From: Haladaptatus sp. DJG-WS-42
GTDB lineage: Archaea; Halobacteriota; Halobacteria; Halobacteriales; Halococcaceae
Direction: 5' to 3'
Assembly (NCBI RefSeq): GCF_037198285.1
Contig: NZ_CP147243.1
Coordinates: 2,038,422-2,102,421 of the forward strand
DNA length: 64,000 bases
The notes beneath the pieces are model-generated. The model worked only from the letters and a program-made list of their open reading frames with translations. It searched no databases and was not told where the DNA came from. Within the stretch, counting starts at the first letter, position 1; every line of letters begins with the position of its first letter. The position numbers were made by a program, and so were the translations under genes. Of the stretch, positions 56,589-63,507 are shown piece after piece.

Positions 56589-59072
56589 TTAGTCTGCTTG
56601 GGCTTGCCACTCGCGGACACGGTCTGCGCTCACGCCCTGTACCTGGTCTGCAACGTCTTCCGGGCTGGCGCTTTTCAGGTCATCTAAGCTCTCGATGCCC
56701 GCATCTTTGAGCTTCTCTGCGGTCTTCTTGCCGACCCCCGATAAATCTTCAATATCTGTCACTTCGTTGCGCGACTTGTACTCGACGTAGTTGCAAATCG
56801 GACAACCGAGTTGCCACGGTTCGTCGCCGCTGTGAACGACGAGTTCCGGCAGGTCGTGTTCCTCACACCGTTCTTCGGTGACCTCAATCTCGCCACGACG
56901 TGGCAGTGGCAGCGAGTAATCACAGTCTGGATAGCGCGTACAGCCGACGAGCCGCGACCCCGTCCGGAGGCGCTTGATGGCGAGTTCGCCGTCGTGTTCC
57001 TCACCGCATTCCGGACAAGTGCCGATGACTTCGTCTTCCTGTTCGTCCGCCTCGTCTGCCTTACACTGCGGACAGCCGTGGACGAACGTCTGACGACCGG
57101 CGAGCATCTTGACGTGGCGCAACTCGTGGTCCTCGCACGTCTCATCTAAGATGAGTGGCTTGCCCGTCGAGGGGAGTGGGAGGGTGTACGTACACTCCGG
57201 ATAGCCGTCACAGCCAACGAAGTACGAACCACGGCGGGAGCGACGAACCAGCAGGTCGTTGCCGCAGTCGGGACACGGCCCGAGCGTCTTGTCCGCCTTG
57301 AGCGACTTCTGGATGTGCTCGCCAATCTTCTCGCGGGAGGCTTCGAGTTCCTCGAACACCTCCTCTAACATCTCCCGTGACTCGGTGGTCACCTCGTCGA
57401 GCGTGGCCTCGCCACGGGCGATTTTCTGCATGTCGGCTTCGAGCTGGCTCGTCATCTCCTCGGTGACGAGGTTTTCTGCGTAATCTTCGCCCGCTTCCAC
57501 GACGGCCATGGCGAGGCGGGTCGGGCGCGGTGGGTCGGATTCGACGTAGCCCCGGTCGTAGAGTTTCTCTAAGGTTTCGTGGCGGGTCGCTTTCGTGCCA
57601 ATCCCCATCTTCTCCATCGTCTCGATGAGCCGTGACTGACCGTATCTGCGCGGCGGCTGGGTCTGTTTGTAGTCGTTTCGCACGTTGCTGACCGCGAGTT
57701 CCTCGCCTTTGTCCACGTCGGGGACGAAGTTCTCGTTGGTTGAATAGTACGGATAGACGGCGTGGTAGCCGGGTTCGAGCAGGCGCTTGCCGTTCGCTTT
57801 GAGGCTGAGGCCTTCTGCCTCCGCGACCACGCGCAGGTGTTCCCACTTCGCGGGGTCTGCACACGTCGCGAAGAAGCGACGAACGACGAGTTCGTACACT
57901 TCCCACTCCGCCTCGCTGATTTCGGTCGGTGTCGGAATCTCGCCCGTCGGGTGAATCGGCGGGTGGTCGGTCGTCTCGCTGTCGCCCCGGGTCGGTTCGA
58001 TGTCCTCGACCTCCAGCAGCGATTTCGCGTCCTCGCCGAAGGTGCGGTGGTTCTGGAACGTTTCCAGTAAGTCGCGCACGTCCAAGTCGTTCGGGTACAC
58101 CGTGTTGTCCGTCCGTGGATAGGTGATGAACCCGGAGGTGTAGAGGTCTTCTGCGATGCTCATCGCGCGCTTTGCCGAGTGGCCGAGCGACCCCGCCGCG
58201 CGGATGAACTGCGTCGTGTTGAACGGCGCTGGCGGGTCGTCGGTGCGCGTCCGGCGGTTGACCGACGTGACCGTCGCCGCGTCCACCGTCTGGAGCGTCT
58301 CGAACACCTCAGCAGCAGTGGCTTCGTCCCAAACCCGCTCTGCTTCCGTGCCGTCGTCTGCCTCGTAGAAGTACTGCGCTTCGAACGCTTCGGCGTCTTT
58401 GGTGAGGTCTGCAAACAGCTCCCAGTAGTCTTCAGGGTCGAACGCCTCGATTTCGCGCTCGCGGTCGACGATGAGTTTGAGCGTCGGACTCTGGACGCGA
58501 CCCACGCTGATGAAGTCGTTGCCCAACTGCCGAGCCGAAAGCGAGAGGAAGCGTGTGAGTGCTGCCCCCCACACGAGGTCGATAATCTGTCGTGCCTCGC
58601 CGGAGGCCGCGAGGTCGAAGTCGAGGTCGTCAGGGTCGTTGAACGCCTTCGTAACCTCGTTTTGCGTAATCGAGGAAAAGCGCACGCGCCTGACGGGTAC
58701 GTCTTCGTTCACTTCGCGGACGAGTTCGTAGGCTTCCTTGCCAATCAACTCGCCTTCGCGGTCGTAGTCGGTCGCAATCGTGACCGCGTCTGCCTTCCGC
58801 GAGTAGAGGCGCAGTGTGCGGACGATGTTCTCTTTGGTCGCCGTTTTGACGACCTGTGCGCCGATGAGCTCGACCGGCTCGACGTCGCGCCAGTCTGAAT
58901 ACTCGGGCGGAAAGTCCACGTCCACGACGTGGCCGGACAGCCCGATGACGCGCTTGTCTGCCCAGCGATAGACGTTGACGCCGTGTTCGCGCTCGACGCT
59001 CGCGTGCTCGCCGGAGAGAATGTCGGCAATGCGGCGGGCAGCGATGTCCTTTTCTGTAATTATCAGCTCCAC
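56589..59072 (-). CDS. topA: DNA topoisomerase I (type IA)
   Basis: An 827-residue type IA topoisomerase. The Toprim domain (1-140) has MELIITEKDIAARRIADIL and the acidic triad DYDREGE (102-108). The active-site tyrosine is Tyr318 in GFITYPRTDNTVYP. After the core come three zinc-ribbon modules (CPDCGND..., CPQCKADE..., CPECGEEHDGELAIKRLRTGS... and CPICNYV) and a C-terminal helix-hairpin-helix (VTDIEDLSGVGKKTAEKL). It relaxes negative supercoils. The C-terminal zinc set and HhH are typical for haloarchaeal TopA. Confidence 0.95.
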   Translation of the reverse strand: MELIITEKDIAARRIADILSGEHASVEREHGVNVYRWADKRVIGLSGHVVDVDFPPEYSDWRDVEPVELIGAQVVKTATKENIVRTLRLYSRKADAVTIATDYDREGELIGKEAYELVREVNEDVPVRRVRFSSITQNEVTKAFNDPDDLDFDLAASGEARQIIDLVWGAALTRFLSLSARQLGNDFISVGRVQSPTLKLIVDREREIEAFDPEDYWELFADLTKDAEAFEAQYFYEADDGTEAERVWDEATAAEVFETLQTVDAATVTSVNRRTRTDDPPAPFNTTQFIRAAGSLGHSAKRAMSIAEDLYTSGFITYPRTDNTVYPNDLDVRDLLETFQNHRTFGEDAKSLLEVEDIEPTRGDSETTDHPPIHPTGEIPTPTEISEAEWEVYELVVRRFFATCADPAKWEHLRVVAEAEGLSLKANGKRLLEPGYHAVYPYYSTNENFVPDVDKGEELAVSNVRNDYKQTQPPRRYGQSRLIETMEKMGIGTKATRHETLEKLYDRGYVESDPPRPTRLAMAVVEAGEDYAENLVTEEMTSQLEADMQKIARGEATLDEVTTESREMLEEVFEELEASREKIGEHIQKSLKADKTLGPCPDCGNDLLVRRSRRGSYFVGCDGYPECTYTLPLPSTGKPLILDETCEDHELRHVKMLAGRQTFVHGCPQCKADEADEQEDEVIGTCPECGEEHDGELAIKRLRTGSRLVGCTRYPDCDYSLPLPRRGEIEVTEERCEEHDLPELVVHSGDEPWQLGCPICNYVEYKSRNEVTDIEDLSGVGKKTAEKLKDAGIESLDDLKSASPEDVADQVQGVSADRVREWQAQAD

Positions 59073-59238
59073 GAGGCAACACCCCGCGAGATTGCAGTCA
59101 TTACCACCGACCTACGCGCAGGTTGTTTCTATACTTTTCGCCGTAAAACCGCCACACAGCGCCCGTGCGCGTCGTGCGCTTGCGCACGCGAGAGTGAAAA
59201 CCGATTGCCTCTTACCCCGTCGCGCCAAAGCCGCGGGC

Positions 59239-59715
59239 ATGGACAAGGGAACCGTCCGCGTCCTCGAATTCATCGCGGCGCAACTCGTTCTCATCTCGGT
59301 GGGCGTCCACCTCTTTCTTGGCATCCCCCGCGTGCTCATCTACGCTCGCCCAAGCGCCGTCTCCTACTATCTGAACTCTGCGGCGTTCCCTGACCCACGC
59401 CCATTTCTGTTCACGGTGTCCGCCGTCGTCGTCCTTGTTGGCCTCTACGCGCTGTTCAACGGGCTTCTCCCCCGCAAGAACCTCTACCTCCTCGGGATTG
59501 CCATGATGTGCACCTACATCGGCAGTTGGGTGCTCTGGCACACCGTCGTCAACCACGGTCAAGTGTTCCTCGCCGCAGGCGGCCACACCCACGGCGGGGG
59601 CATCCTCACGACGGTCATTCAGCACCTCGTCGAAGTGCCCTTAGACGCCGCCTCGAAGCTCTCTGAGGCGGGCGCGGCGCTCATCTTCGGCTTGCTCTAC
59701 TGGAAAACGGATTAG
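59239..59715 (+). CDS. membrane protein, unknown
   Basis: A 158-residue membrane protein with four helices: about 7-27, 53-75, 80-105 and 130-150. VLWHTVVNHGQVFLAAGGHTHGGGILTTVIQHLVEVP contains several His residues near the membrane and could bind metal or haem; no known family motif is recognised. ATG at 59239 is the first with a normal N-terminus (MDKGTVRVLEF). The 3' end overlaps the subtilase-like gene by four bases. Convergent arrangement. Confidence 0.7.
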   Translation: MDKGTVRVLEFIAAQLVLISVGVHLFLGIPRVLIYARPSAVSYYLNSAAFPDPRPFLFTVSAVVVLVGLYALFNGLLPRKNLYLLGIAMMCTYIGSWVLWHTVVNHGQVFLAAGGHTHGGGILTTVIQHLVEVPLDAASKLSEAGAALIFGLLYWKTD

Positions 59716-61292
59716 GGCTCGGTGGCCATGCCGGTATCGCGCGGTTCGTAGGCCTCTTTCGCCCGTTCGTAGGCCGCTGAGACGTTTATTTCGCCGTAGC
59801 CGCTCGCCGCATCCACACCGTCTGCGTCCATGTCGGTGGCCGACTCGGTGAGCAAGTTGGCAATCTCATCGCTCGACAGGCTCGGGTACGCGGATTTCAC
59901 GAGTGCAGCAGCCCCCGCGACGTAGGACGCCGACACGGACGTCCCAGCGGAGACGCCCGCGATGTCAACGCCGCCAACCCCACCCGGCGCGACGAGGTCA
60001 ACGCCGGGGTCGCCCGTTGCGGTCGGCCCGCGCGAGCTAAACGCGGCAACCGACCCGTTCTCGCTCGCGCCCACGGTCACCACCGACGGCGCGGTCGCCG
60101 GGGCGGCGAGACTCCCCTCCGCGGTCGCATACGTCAGCGTGTGGCTGGTCGAAAACAGGTTGAGCGTCGCGTTCCCGGTGGTGTCCTCGCCGTAGATGGC
60201 AACGTAGTACTCGCCTTCGGGAACCACCACGGAGATGCGTTCGAGCCCTGCTTCGCGGCTGGTCGATTTGGCGACGACGGTGTCTTGCCCGCCGGTTTCA
60301 CGAAGCAGATAGAGGTCGTAGTCCTCGCTCGTGTTCCACGAAAGCGTCAGGTGTACCTCGCCCTTGACGGGGTCGCCACCGGCGAGTGCGTTGCCTTCGA
60401 CACCGTCTGCAAACGCGACCCACGGCTCGTCTGAGTCGGTCAGTTTGCCTTGCCAGTGGCGGTCTGCGTAGTTTCCGGCGGAGGTGACAAACAGCACCTC
60501 TTCGCTCGCGCGAGCAGCGATGTCGTTGATTGTGGACTCGCTCTCACCGTGGTCGAAGTAGCTGCCCGCATCGAGAATGATGTCCGCCTCAGAATCAAGT
60601 AACCACGTCACCGCTGCGTCGTACTCGTCGGTCGTCGTCTCTGTGCCAACGTCCGCGAGATAGAGCGTCGCGTTCGGCGCGGTGTCCGCGACGATGCTTG
60701 CGACCGCTGTGCCGTGTGCGTCTGCAGCAGGTGGCGAGTCTTCGGTCGAGAACGTCCGGTACGCGCCGACGGAGTCTGCGATTTCGGGGCTGCTCACGCG
60801 AAAGCCCCTTCCGACGATGCCCACAGTCACGTTTTCACCCGAGATTCCGTCCTGCTGGAGTGCAGCCGCGCCAATCGTCTCGACGCCTGCCGCCACGCGA
60901 TTTTTGAGTCGTGGCATGTGCGGTTGGCTCTCGATGAGGATGGTTTCGGTGCTCGGGTCTGCAGAGAGCATCGTAATCTCAGAATACGGAATCGAACCGT
61001 GGAGATACTGGATGCCTTCACGCTCCTCTACGCGCTCTATCTGGAGACTATGGCCCGTCGGAAGCGGCGCGCCCTGTTTCAACATCACGACGACTTGCGC
61101 GTCGCGGTCTACCTGCTCGTGGCGAAACGACGCTTCGACGGGGCGAATCTGCTCTTCGAGTTGTGCGAGGCGTTCCTGACTCGGCCCGTCGAACTGCTCG
61201 CCCGTATCGAACACGAAACTAGGAGCGACGGCGACAGCCACAAGTGCGAACACCACCGAAAAAGCCGCAAACTGCCCCCAACGCTCCCACAT
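59712..61292 (-). CDS. subtilisin-like (S8) protein lacking the catalytic aspartate
   Basis: A 526-residue exported protein with an N-terminal hydrophobic helix (8-28) and an inhibitor-like segment (about 60-120). The subtilase core has VTVGIVGRGFRV, where the catalytic Asp is replaced by Gly161. His193 (DAHGTAVASI), oxyanion Asn274 (FVTSAGN) and Ser452 (AGTSVSAS) remain. An insertion of about 110 residues (310-390) with HLTLSWNTSEDYDLYLL and VPEGEYYVAIYG looks like a pre-peptidase C-terminal domain. It is the last gene of a two-gene set with the membrane winged-helix regulator. Probably inactive or altered as protease. Confidence 0.85.
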   Translation of the reverse strand: MWERWGQFAAFSVVFALVAVAVAPSFVFDTGEQFDGPSQERLAQLEEQIRPVEASFRHEQVDRDAQVVVMLKQGAPLPTGHSLQIERVEEREGIQYLHGSIPYSEITMLSADPSTETILIESQPHMPRLKNRVAAGVETIGAAALQQDGISGENVTVGIVGRGFRVSSPEIADSVGAYRTFSTEDSPPAADAHGTAVASIVADTAPNATLYLADVGTETTTDEYDAAVTWLLDSEADIILDAGSYFDHGESESTINDIAARASEEVLFVTSAGNYADRHWQGKLTDSDEPWVAFADGVEGNALAGGDPVKGEVHLTLSWNTSEDYDLYLLRETGGQDTVVAKSTSREAGLERISVVVPEGEYYVAIYGEDTTGNATLNLFSTSHTLTYATAEGSLAAPATAPSVVTVGASENGSVAAFSSRGPTATGDPGVDLVAPGGVGGVDIAGVSAGTSVSASYVAGAAALVKSAYPSLSSDEIANLLTESATDMDADGVDAASGYGEINVSAAYERAKEAYEPRDTGMATEP

Positions 61293-61315
61293 ACGTATAC
61301 TCCCGCAATTAATCG

Positions 61316-61951
61316 TTAAATTCTTTCTCTTTTAGGAGTCGTCTGCTCTTGGACGTAGAGCCAGCCTGCGACGAGTGCGAGGACGAGCGCGCCACCGGCG
61401 AAAAACAGCGCACCGGGTGGGACGGCGTCGAAGAACGACAGCACGCTTCCCGACGACCCGACGGAGTCGGGTACGCGCGGGAGGCTTCCGGGGCTGCCAA
61501 CGCCGACGACGGTCGTCTGGACGAGCAGTTCGACGAGCAGGCTGGCGACGGCGAGGACGCCCACGGCGGCGAACAGCCGCTTGAGCGAATCGACGAAGCC
61601 GTCTTTTTTCTCTTCCCGCCCGACGAACACCACGAGCGGTTCCTGTGCCGGGGCATAGACGTTCATCTCACGACCCTTTGGTGAATAGCGCATGTCTGCG
61701 ACGCGAATCAGTCCCGCGTCGTCTAAGTTGGTGAGGTGATGGCGCACGTTTTGGAGCGAGGTCCCCACGGAATCGGCCAACTCAGAGGCTACCTGTGGCT
61801 CTTTGTGGAGTTCCGTGAGAATCGCCCGTGCCGTCTCGGACGCGAGCGACGATAGCAGGTCGCCTGCGTCCTCGTTGTCTAGCCAGAGCGTTCGCAGCTC
61901 GCCCTCTTGGTTCGAGAGGGCATCGCTGTCGGAGGGCATCAACCCTGACAT
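61316..61951 (-). CDS. membrane-anchored winged-helix regulator (ArsR-like)
   Basis: A 211-residue protein. An ArsR-like winged helix spans about 32-95 (ASETARAILTELHKEPQVASELADSVGTSLQNVRHHLTNLDDAGLIRV). Then come a charged stretch and two membrane helices (about 128-148 and 178-200), with an extracytoplasmic loop of about 28 residues between them. The layout (cytoplasmic DNA-binding part, periplasmic-side loop) fits a tethered transcription factor. The downstream subtilase-like gene begins 23 bases later, so they likely act together. ATG at 61951; ATG at 61939 is an alternative. Confidence 0.82.
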   Translation of the reverse strand: MSGLMPSDSDALSNQEGELRTLWLDNEDAGDLLSSLASETARAILTELHKEPQVASELADSVGTSLQNVRHHLTNLDDAGLIRVADMRYSPKGREMNVYAPAQEPLVVFVGREEKKDGFVDSLKRLFAAVGVLAVASLLVELLVQTTVVGVGSPGSLPRVPDSVGSSGSVLSFFDAVPPGALFFAGGALVLALVAGWLYVQEQTTPKRERI

Positions 61952-62019: not shown

Positions 62020-63507
62020 TCAGGCGTCGAGGCGTTCCCGTAACAGCTTGTTGACGGTTCCGGGGTCTGCACTCCCGCCGGTTTTCTGCATCACTTGCCC
62101 GACGAGGAAGTTAAGCGCGCTCCCCTCGCCGCTGTGGTAATCGGAAACGGCGTCTTCGTTCTCCTCGATGGCCGCCTCGACCGCCTGCTCGACCTCGCCC
62201 GTATCGGCCTTCCCGAGGCCCGCTTGCTCGACAATCGTGTCGGGGTCTTGGCCCTCGTCGAGCATCGTGCGCATGACGGTTTCCTGGGCGTGTTTCACGG
62301 TAATCTCTTCGTCGTCTACGAGTTCGATGAGGCGCATGAACTCGTCTAAGCGGTCTGCGACGTCCGTGATCTCCATGTCGCGGTAGTTGAGTTCGCCAAG
62401 CAAGCTGTCCGCGACCCACGTCGCCGCGAGGTCGGGGTCGAACTCCGTGGCCACGCGCTCGTAGAAGTCGGCCACCTGCTTGGTGGACGTGAGCTTCGAG
62501 GCGGCTTCAGCCGACAGGTCGTACGCTTCTTGGAACCGCTCGCGGCGAGCGTGGGGCAGCTCTGGAATGTCGAGTTCCGCTTTCCAGTGGGCGACCTGCA
62601 GCGGCGGGAGGTCTGCCTCGCCGAAGTAGCGATAGTCTTTCTCCTCTTCTTTCGAGCGCATCGAGACGGTGATGCCCCGTGATTCGTCCCAGTGTCGGGT
62701 CTCCTGTTCGACCTCGCGCCCGCGCATGACGGCGTTTTTCTGGCGGGTAACTTCGTAGGCGAGCGCTTTCTCTGCGCCCTTGTGACTGGAGATGTTCTTC
62801 ACTTCGGTGCGGTTTGCGGCGGCGAGGTTTTCGTCGCTAATCGAGCCGTCCGCTTCGACCTTGTCCGCGCCGATGAGCGAGATGTTGGCGTCGATGCGCA
62901 GCGAGCCGTCGCGCGTGGAATCGAACACGCCGAGGTAGTCGAGCACTTCCTCTAACTTCTTCAAGAAGGCGCGCACCTCACCCGGCGAGCGGAAGTCGGG
63001 CTTCGTCACGATTTCCATGAGCGGCGTCCCCGCGCGGTTGTAGTTCACGAGGACGTAATCCGCGGTGTCGATGGAGCCGCCGACGTGTTGGAGGCTGCCG
63101 GGGTCTTCTTCAAGGTGGGCGCGTTCGATGCCGATGACGCGCGAGTCGCCTTTGACGTTCACTTCGAGTTCGCCGTCCTGGCAGATCGGTGCGTCGTACT
63201 GCGTAATCTGGAAGTCTTTGGGCAGGTCGGGGTAGAAGTAGTTTTTCCGGTGGAAGGTGGTCTCTTCGGGGATGGTTGCTTTCAGTGCCTTGCCGATCTT
63301 GACGGCGGCTTCGACGGCCCCTTCGTTGAGGACGGGCAGCGCCCCGGGGAGCCCAAGACAGACGGGACACGTGCGGGAATTTGGCTCCGCGTCGGCCGCG
63401 TCAGTCGAACACCCACAGAAAATCTTCGTGGCAGTCTCTAGCTGGACGTGGACCTCTAACCCAATCACGACGGCAAGGTCCTGCGTCTCGGCAGCTTGTG
63501 CGGTCAT
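62020..63507 (-). CDS. gatB: Asp-tRNA(Asn)/Glu-tRNA(Gln) amidotransferase subunit B
   Basis: A 495-residue GatB. Kinase-like core signatures: VIGLEVHVQLETATKIFCGCSTD with GEPNSRTCPVCLGLPGALPVLN (Cys ligands of a zinc site), YFYPDLPKDFQITQYD, and the GatB C-terminal YqeY-like domain (from about 330). With GatA and GatC it converts mis-acylated Asp-tRNA-Asn or Glu-tRNA-Gln to the amide forms. In haloarchaea it mainly serves Asn, since GatDE handles Gln. The partner subunits are not in this window. Complete and well matched. Confidence 0.95.
   Translation of the reverse strand: MTAQAAETQDLAVVIGLEVHVQLETATKIFCGCSTDAADAEPNSRTCPVCLGLPGALPVLNEGAVEAAVKIGKALKATIPEETTFHRKNYFYPDLPKDFQITQYDAPICQDGELEVNVKGDSRVIGIERAHLEEDPGSLQHVGGSIDTADYVLVNYNRAGTPLMEIVTKPDFRSPGEVRAFLKKLEEVLDYLGVFDSTRDGSLRIDANISLIGADKVEADGSISDENLAAANRTEVKNISSHKGAEKALAYEVTRQKNAVMRGREVEQETRHWDESRGITVSMRSKEEEKDYRYFGEADLPPLQVAHWKAELDIPELPHARRERFQEAYDLSAEAASKLTSTKQVADFYERVATEFDPDLAATWVADSLLGELNYRDMEITDVADRLDEFMRLIELVDDEEITVKHAQETVMRTMLDEGQDPDTIVEQAGLGKADTGEVEQAVEAAIEENEDAVSDYHSGEGSALNFLVGQVMQKTGGSADPGTVNKLLRERLDA

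Follow-up and report, generated by a model that had tools for sequence, protein, structure and literature searches.

The locus described here raises the question of what a subtilisin homologue without its catalytic Asp is doing directly downstream of a regulator that is predicted to sit in the membrane. It lies in the window, by which we mean the whole stretch of 64,000 nucleotides of Haladaptatus sp. DJG-WS-42 that was analyzed. An earlier note on this DNA had read the second gene either as a dead protease that senses a ligand or peptide outside and signals to the regulator, or as an altered triad with slow activity. Both genes are on the minus strand, with the regulator upstream and a gap of 23 bp before the subtilase. 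The features of the regulator are given below with their evidence in brackets.

61316..61951, minus strand: winged-helix regulator of 211 aa, predicted to be membrane-tethered (ORF, Pfam, model)
61700..61846, minus strand: HTH_20 DNA-binding domain, residues 36-84 (Pfam; Foldseek)
61505..61579, minus strand: predicted transmembrane helix 1, approximately residues 125-149 (model helix 113-149; hydrophobicity)
61418..61504, minus strand: predicted outer loop, residues 150-178, disordered in the model (model)
61457..61480, minus strand: loop motif PRVPDSVG, residues 158-165, the window's form of PRxxD (compared loops of regulator-first pairs)
61340..61417, minus strand: predicted transmembrane helix 2, residues 179-204 (model)

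The regulator had been described as a DNA-binding domain with two helices and a short outside loop. This description agrees with the Pfam matches to HTH_20 (E 4e-13, 49.5 bits against a cutoff of 27) and PF24267 HVO_1552_C (E 9e-14, 52.0 bits against a curated cutoff of 27) and with the model, in which the winged helix is followed by helix 113-149, the disordered loop 150-178 and helix 179-204. The orientation in the membrane with the loop outside was inferred from hydrophobicity and charge. The profile score above the cutoff together with the HTH places the protein in the HVO_1552_C family (PF24267), and the archaeal ArsR-type regulators PH1932 and Phr are the top Foldseek matches of its model. 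The features of the subtilase homologue are as follows.

59712..61292, minus strand: exported subtilase homologue of 526 aa with Gly at the Asp site (ORF, Pfam, model)
61212..61274, minus strand: N-terminal hydrophobic helix, residues 7-27, signal peptide or membrane anchor (model)
60927..61109, minus strand: prodomain-like segment, residues 62-122 (AlphaFold model)
60810..60812, minus strand: Gly161 codon GGA at the catalytic Asp position (profile alignment, codon check)
60714..60716, minus strand: catalytic His193 (alignment)
60471..60473, minus strand: oxyanion-hole Asn274 (alignment)
60123..60446, minus strand: inserted beta-sandwich (jelly-roll-like) domain, approximately residues 283-390 (model strands; Csp fold matches)
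59937..59939, minus strand: nucleophile Ser452 (alignment)

The Peptidase_S8 profile PF00082 matches this protein with E 2e-26, and in a fold search of its AlphaFold model (pLDDT 89.8, pTM 0.86) subtilisin chains match the core with a TM-score of about 0.8 by target length. The modelled order is the N-terminal helix, the prodomain-like segment (strands 64-71, 84-91 and 94-102, helix 103-110, strand 115-120), the subtilase core, a beta-rich insert and then the Ser452 region, which bears out the beta-sandwich that had been predicted before Ser452. The Pfam search gave no prodomain match in the window subtilase, and no lipobox was found in its N-terminal helix (residues 7-27). The ORF and the alignment confirm that His193, Asn274 and Ser452 are retained and that the Asp site reads VGIVG161RGF. 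The Asp-His-Ser triad of the S8 family is thus incomplete, Gly161 replacing Asp beside His193 and Ser452, and the protein is classed from its sequence as a subtilase homologue of putative peptidase status.

All three species of the genus carry Gly161: the subtilases of the two other species are 89% and 76% identical to that of the window, and both have Gly. The Gly codons of the three species are GGA (window), GGC and GGT, and GGA is two substitutions away from any Asp codon; a sequencing error or an isolated change was therefore rejected. Within the genus the NG86 dN/dS values are low, 0.14-0.16 in the subtilase and 0.07-0.08 in the regulator, which indicates purifying selection on the pair, and a decaying pseudogene was likewise rejected at a subtilase dN/dS of about 0.15. 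Outside the genus, most orthologues at this locus, with the pair between gatB and topA, retain Asp (for example L069, L071 and L180), so the pair does not depend on the loss of Asp. The idea of a conserved Asp-to-Gly change therefore holds in part: the change is fixed in the genus and recurs elsewhere, but most same-locus orthologues in other genera do not have it. The Gly of the genus would be either a derived loss or a state common to the Haloferacaceae branch, and the latter would require a regain of Asp.

The distribution of the pair was profiled by searches of three haloarchaeal families, in which subtilase relatives were found in 65 of 146, 72 of 171 and 13 of 28 genomes; some of these matches are long unpaired proteins, and a scan of named genomes supplied further sequences. 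The regulator lies less than 300 bp away on the same strand for 118 of the 132 distinct subtilase sequences and within 1 kb for 2 more. There are 120 non-identical haloarchaeal loci with both genes on the same strand, mostly spaced by 0-105 bp, in a sample that is phylogenetically uneven and redundant, with some genomes possibly in two collections. The two genes are probably cotranscribed. At two loci with related sequences and Gly at the Asp site (L179 and L181), no regulator was seen at one, and at the other the distance to it is 774 bp.

Two gene orders occur among the pairs, regulator-first (the window's group) and subtilase-first, and the ORF-based ordering misplaced two or three loci (L087, L092, L212). 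Three neighbourhoods were seen, namely gatB/topA, a NAD(P)HX-epimerase-like gene with a DinG/XPD-type helicase gene, and, in the subtilase-first group, a DUF7827 surface protein gene. The window has the first of these.

62020..63507, minus strand: gatB, conserved syntenic neighbour outside the module (gatB adjoins the pair in 21 regulator-first loci)
56589..59072, minus strand: topA-like topoisomerase gene, conserved syntenic neighbour outside the module (synteny)

With two gene orders and three neighbourhoods the pairing is not mere synteny, and synteny alone was rejected as its cause. The regulator and subtilase genes form, as judged from these loci, a conserved unit in many haloarchaeal genera; the expectation of the same pair in other haloarchaea was borne out, and the genes are not apart in most relatives. 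One of the carriers is Haloarcula hispanica ATCC 33960 (HAH_RS18460/HAH_RS18465), which is culturable.

Some neighbours deserve mention on their own account. A gene for a small membrane protein without a Pfam match (59236-59715, plus strand) is convergent with the window subtilase, and other genera also have it at their gatB-topA locus. The gene for the DUF7827 (BGTF-type) surface protein is convergent with and adjoins the pair in 54 subtilase-first loci (for example L289:3845-7709, L182 and L244), and its product may be a target, substrate or ligand of the pair; in the window's genome the single DUF7827 gene lies far from the pair.

The residue at the Asp site was read from profile-alignment columns. 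It is Asp in 75 of the 120 pairs, Gly in 42 and Ser, Val and Ala in one each, Asp being absent in 45. His and Asn are present in 120 of 120 and Ser in all 119 complete pairs, the remaining ORF being frameshifted or cut before Ser. The Asp loop has the canonical form D-x-G in only 8 pairs, D-x-x-G in 55 and D-x-D in 11, is otherwise altered in 1 and has no Asp in 45. A quick ML tree built without the trait columns requires a minimum of 8 switches between Asp and non-Asp, which become 12 losses when a regain of Asp is disallowed, and the repeated loss selectively concerns Asp alone. A run of eight losses all at Asp would be improbable if the triad residues had equal odds, approximately (1/3)^8, a figure which ignores rate differences and regains. 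As a control, other haloarchaeal subtilases were aligned with MAFFT, and all 34 carry the complete triad of Asp, His and Ser. Asp is also missing in 4 of 12 unpaired relatives, so its loss is not specific to pairing; a strict link between the two was rejected on this count and on the 75 pairs that retain Asp.

Other changes around the site were recorded. HGT at the catalytic His has become HDT in 30 pairs, always with Asp-to-Gly (for example L248, L249, L205, L206 and other Haloferacaceae), and this may possibly be a relocation of the triad acid; Asp at both the triad position and after His was found in none of the 120 pairs. One locus nested in the HDT branch (L209) has Asp and HG again, both sites being canonical. 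In subtilase-first pairs Asp is retained with an additional residue after it (VDVTGF, VDPTGF), and GTS is often GSS. An Arg beside the empty Asp site was considered as a fixed anion ligand and is not supported, as it occurs both with and without Asp.

Because only Asp is lost and His, Asn and Ser are kept, a dead protease is not the likeliest form of the sensor, and the pattern points to retained Ser-His chemistry. A pure pseudoprotease would cleave nothing, and its cleft would bind a peptide, a ligand or the regulator loop and signal by conformation, as proposed for CspC of Clostridium difficile. The loss of Asp agrees with such a protein, as does the beta-sandwich insert within a Csp-like three-part architecture. 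Active subtilisins normally need a prodomain, and there is no room for one in many family members, which also favours it. The window subtilase, unlike these members, retains a prodomain-like segment, and every complete pair has kept Ser, His and Asn, although constraints of fold or binding instead of catalysis could account for the retained Ser and His. The pattern is the opposite in CspC, a true pseudoprotease of the same architecture, where Asp remains and Ser and His are gone (PMC6636752), and we regard a pure pseudoprotease as possible yet rather unlikely.

The regulator family can work alone, because it is widespread without the subtilase: PF24267 was found in 359 of 392 haloarchaeal genomes, and a related subtilase is absent beside all 30 of its best-scoring members. 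The adjacency of the genes could mean that the regulator merely controls the neighbouring subtilase gene while sensing the membrane by itself, the two proteins never touching. The mostly unpaired state of the family is in keeping with this account, and autoregulation is common in ArsR-type regulators. Against it stand the survival of the pair through reversal of gene order and in three neighbourhoods, and two properties of the sequences. The first is a loop motif specific to paired regulators. A P-R-x-x-D-like motif was found by pattern in 48 of 53 regulator-first loops, and the five misses are loops shortened by the parser, whose full tails show PRVPD, PRVGE or RSPD. Unlike the window regulator, most of the top PF24267 members lack a subtilase neighbour, and their loops, rich in Gly/Ser/Thr, do not contain PRxxD; among 30 unpaired paralogues with such loops the loose pattern occurs in 2. 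What the subtilase-first loops share instead is a PAS-type stretch (56 of 66 by pattern). The second is that subtilase and regulator distances correlate beyond the gatB control (partial r 0.47, permutation p 0.0005, 20 loci), which is consistent with contact between the two proteins, short of proof. A link through the operon only is thus considered quite improbable.

The layout of the regulator also recalls SREBP, which has two helices and a short loop, and it is conceivable that the winged helix is freed in two steps, by a cut of the subtilase in the outer loop and then a second one by an intramembrane protease, in the manner of S1P and S2P. Asp is retained in 75 of the 120 pairs and M50 proteases are present in the window's genome, but these are near universal (14 of 14 control genomes), the window enzyme has no triad acid and the Asp loop is altered in most pairs. 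A CPBP-family intramembrane protease gene, a candidate second cutter, is divergent from the subtilase in 14 Haloarcula-type loci (for example L289:2432-3283 and L159), whereas none was seen beside the pair outside this group among the pair loci examined. Such a release by two cuts appears improbable to us.

We prefer, tentatively and with a little less than even confidence, to read the pair as a co-component-type module that is conserved in haloarchaea and signals across the membrane, with an attenuated or gated Ser-His subtilase as its sensor. The subtilase homologue would be exported and probably stay at the membrane, where its cleft would engage the short outer loop of the two-helix regulator, and the state of this contact would set DNA binding by the cytoplasmic winged helix. 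Ser, His and the oxyanion Asn would be kept under selection while the triad acid is removed, as in the window, or moved or displaced. With an attenuated triad the sensor would therefore act slowly, once, or only with an extra factor that completes the site.

A bolder proposal, which we hold to be very improbable, is a natural anion-gated protease switch. A small anion would fill the Asp-to-Gly pocket and restore the charge relay, so that the external level of an anion or salt is passed to the tethered transcription factor; in the Haloferacaceae branch the Asp would instead have moved to the residue next after His. Brine contains molar chloride, which makes a chemical rescue of the Gly site conceivable. 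The candidate anions would be nitrite, formate or the multimolar chloride of brine, by analogy with engineered D32G subtilisin. The latter is rescued strongly by nitrite and also by azide, while formate and chloride act weakly at 10 mM (PMC7935941).

That engineered enzyme resembles the window subtilase at the active site. The subtilisin BPN' variants D32A/D32G (PDB 3BGO, 3F49, 6UBE) are anion-triggered, and the nitrite-dependent ones have Gly (PMC7935941). In them and in the window subtilase the same residue is changed with His and Ser kept, and their structures are among the fold matches of the window model; they are engineered and anion-dependent, whereas the window protein is natural and the likeness comes from sequence and fold. 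The top solved-structure matches of the model are C. difficile CspA, the CspC-CspA complex, C. perfringens CspB and subtilisins. The Csp subtilases (CspA, CspB, CspC) share with the window protein a prodomain, a subtilase core and an inserted jelly roll, although the prodomain is absent in many of its relatives. Two of them, CspA and CspC, have signalling roles and have lost catalytic residues (PMC6636752). Identity to the window subtilase is approximately 15%, the NCBIfam CspBA profile scores 20 against a cutoff of 1250, so that the protein is not a Csp by sequence, and the Csp proteins act in spore germination and not on a tethered regulator.

For the module as a whole, membrane-bound transcription regulators are widespread in archaea (PMC10269533), and a search of the open literature, subscription papers being outside its scope, gave no work on HVO_1552 or on the regulator-subtilase pair and no description of a subtilase partner of a tethered regulator. 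The one-step transmembrane switch outside standard systems, as the earlier note called it, has a precedent in the co-component systems of enteric bacteria (ToxR/ToxS, VtrA/VtrC), which join a tethered regulator to an external partner (PMC9214523). Both have a winged-helix regulator, tethered in co-component systems and predicted to be so here, beside an exported partner in a conserved cassette, seen here as a same-strand gene pair at 120 loci, and in co-component systems the signal crosses the membrane without phosphotransfer, as is proposed for the pair. The co-component partner is a lipocalin-like barrel of the VtrC/ToxS kind and its regulator has a single helix and a periplasmic domain, whereas here the partner is a subtilase and the archaeal, ArsR-like regulator ends in two helices with a loop between them. 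Co-component proteins form an obligate ligand-sensing heterodimer outside the cytoplasm, while the pair is known here from genes and single-chain models. Since its partner is a subtilase, the pair would at most work like a co-component system and not be a member by descent. What may be new is therefore the subtilase as sensor partner and the archaeal setting, the type of switch being already known. Signalling from outside to the genes is poorly known in haloarchaea beyond two-component systems, and the natural series of Asp, Gly, Gly with a relocated Asp and an inserted residue offers a test of how far a serine protease can be attenuated and still be selected. If a tethered regulator is accompanied in many genera by a fixed subtilase sensor, co-component signalling would gain a new type of input.
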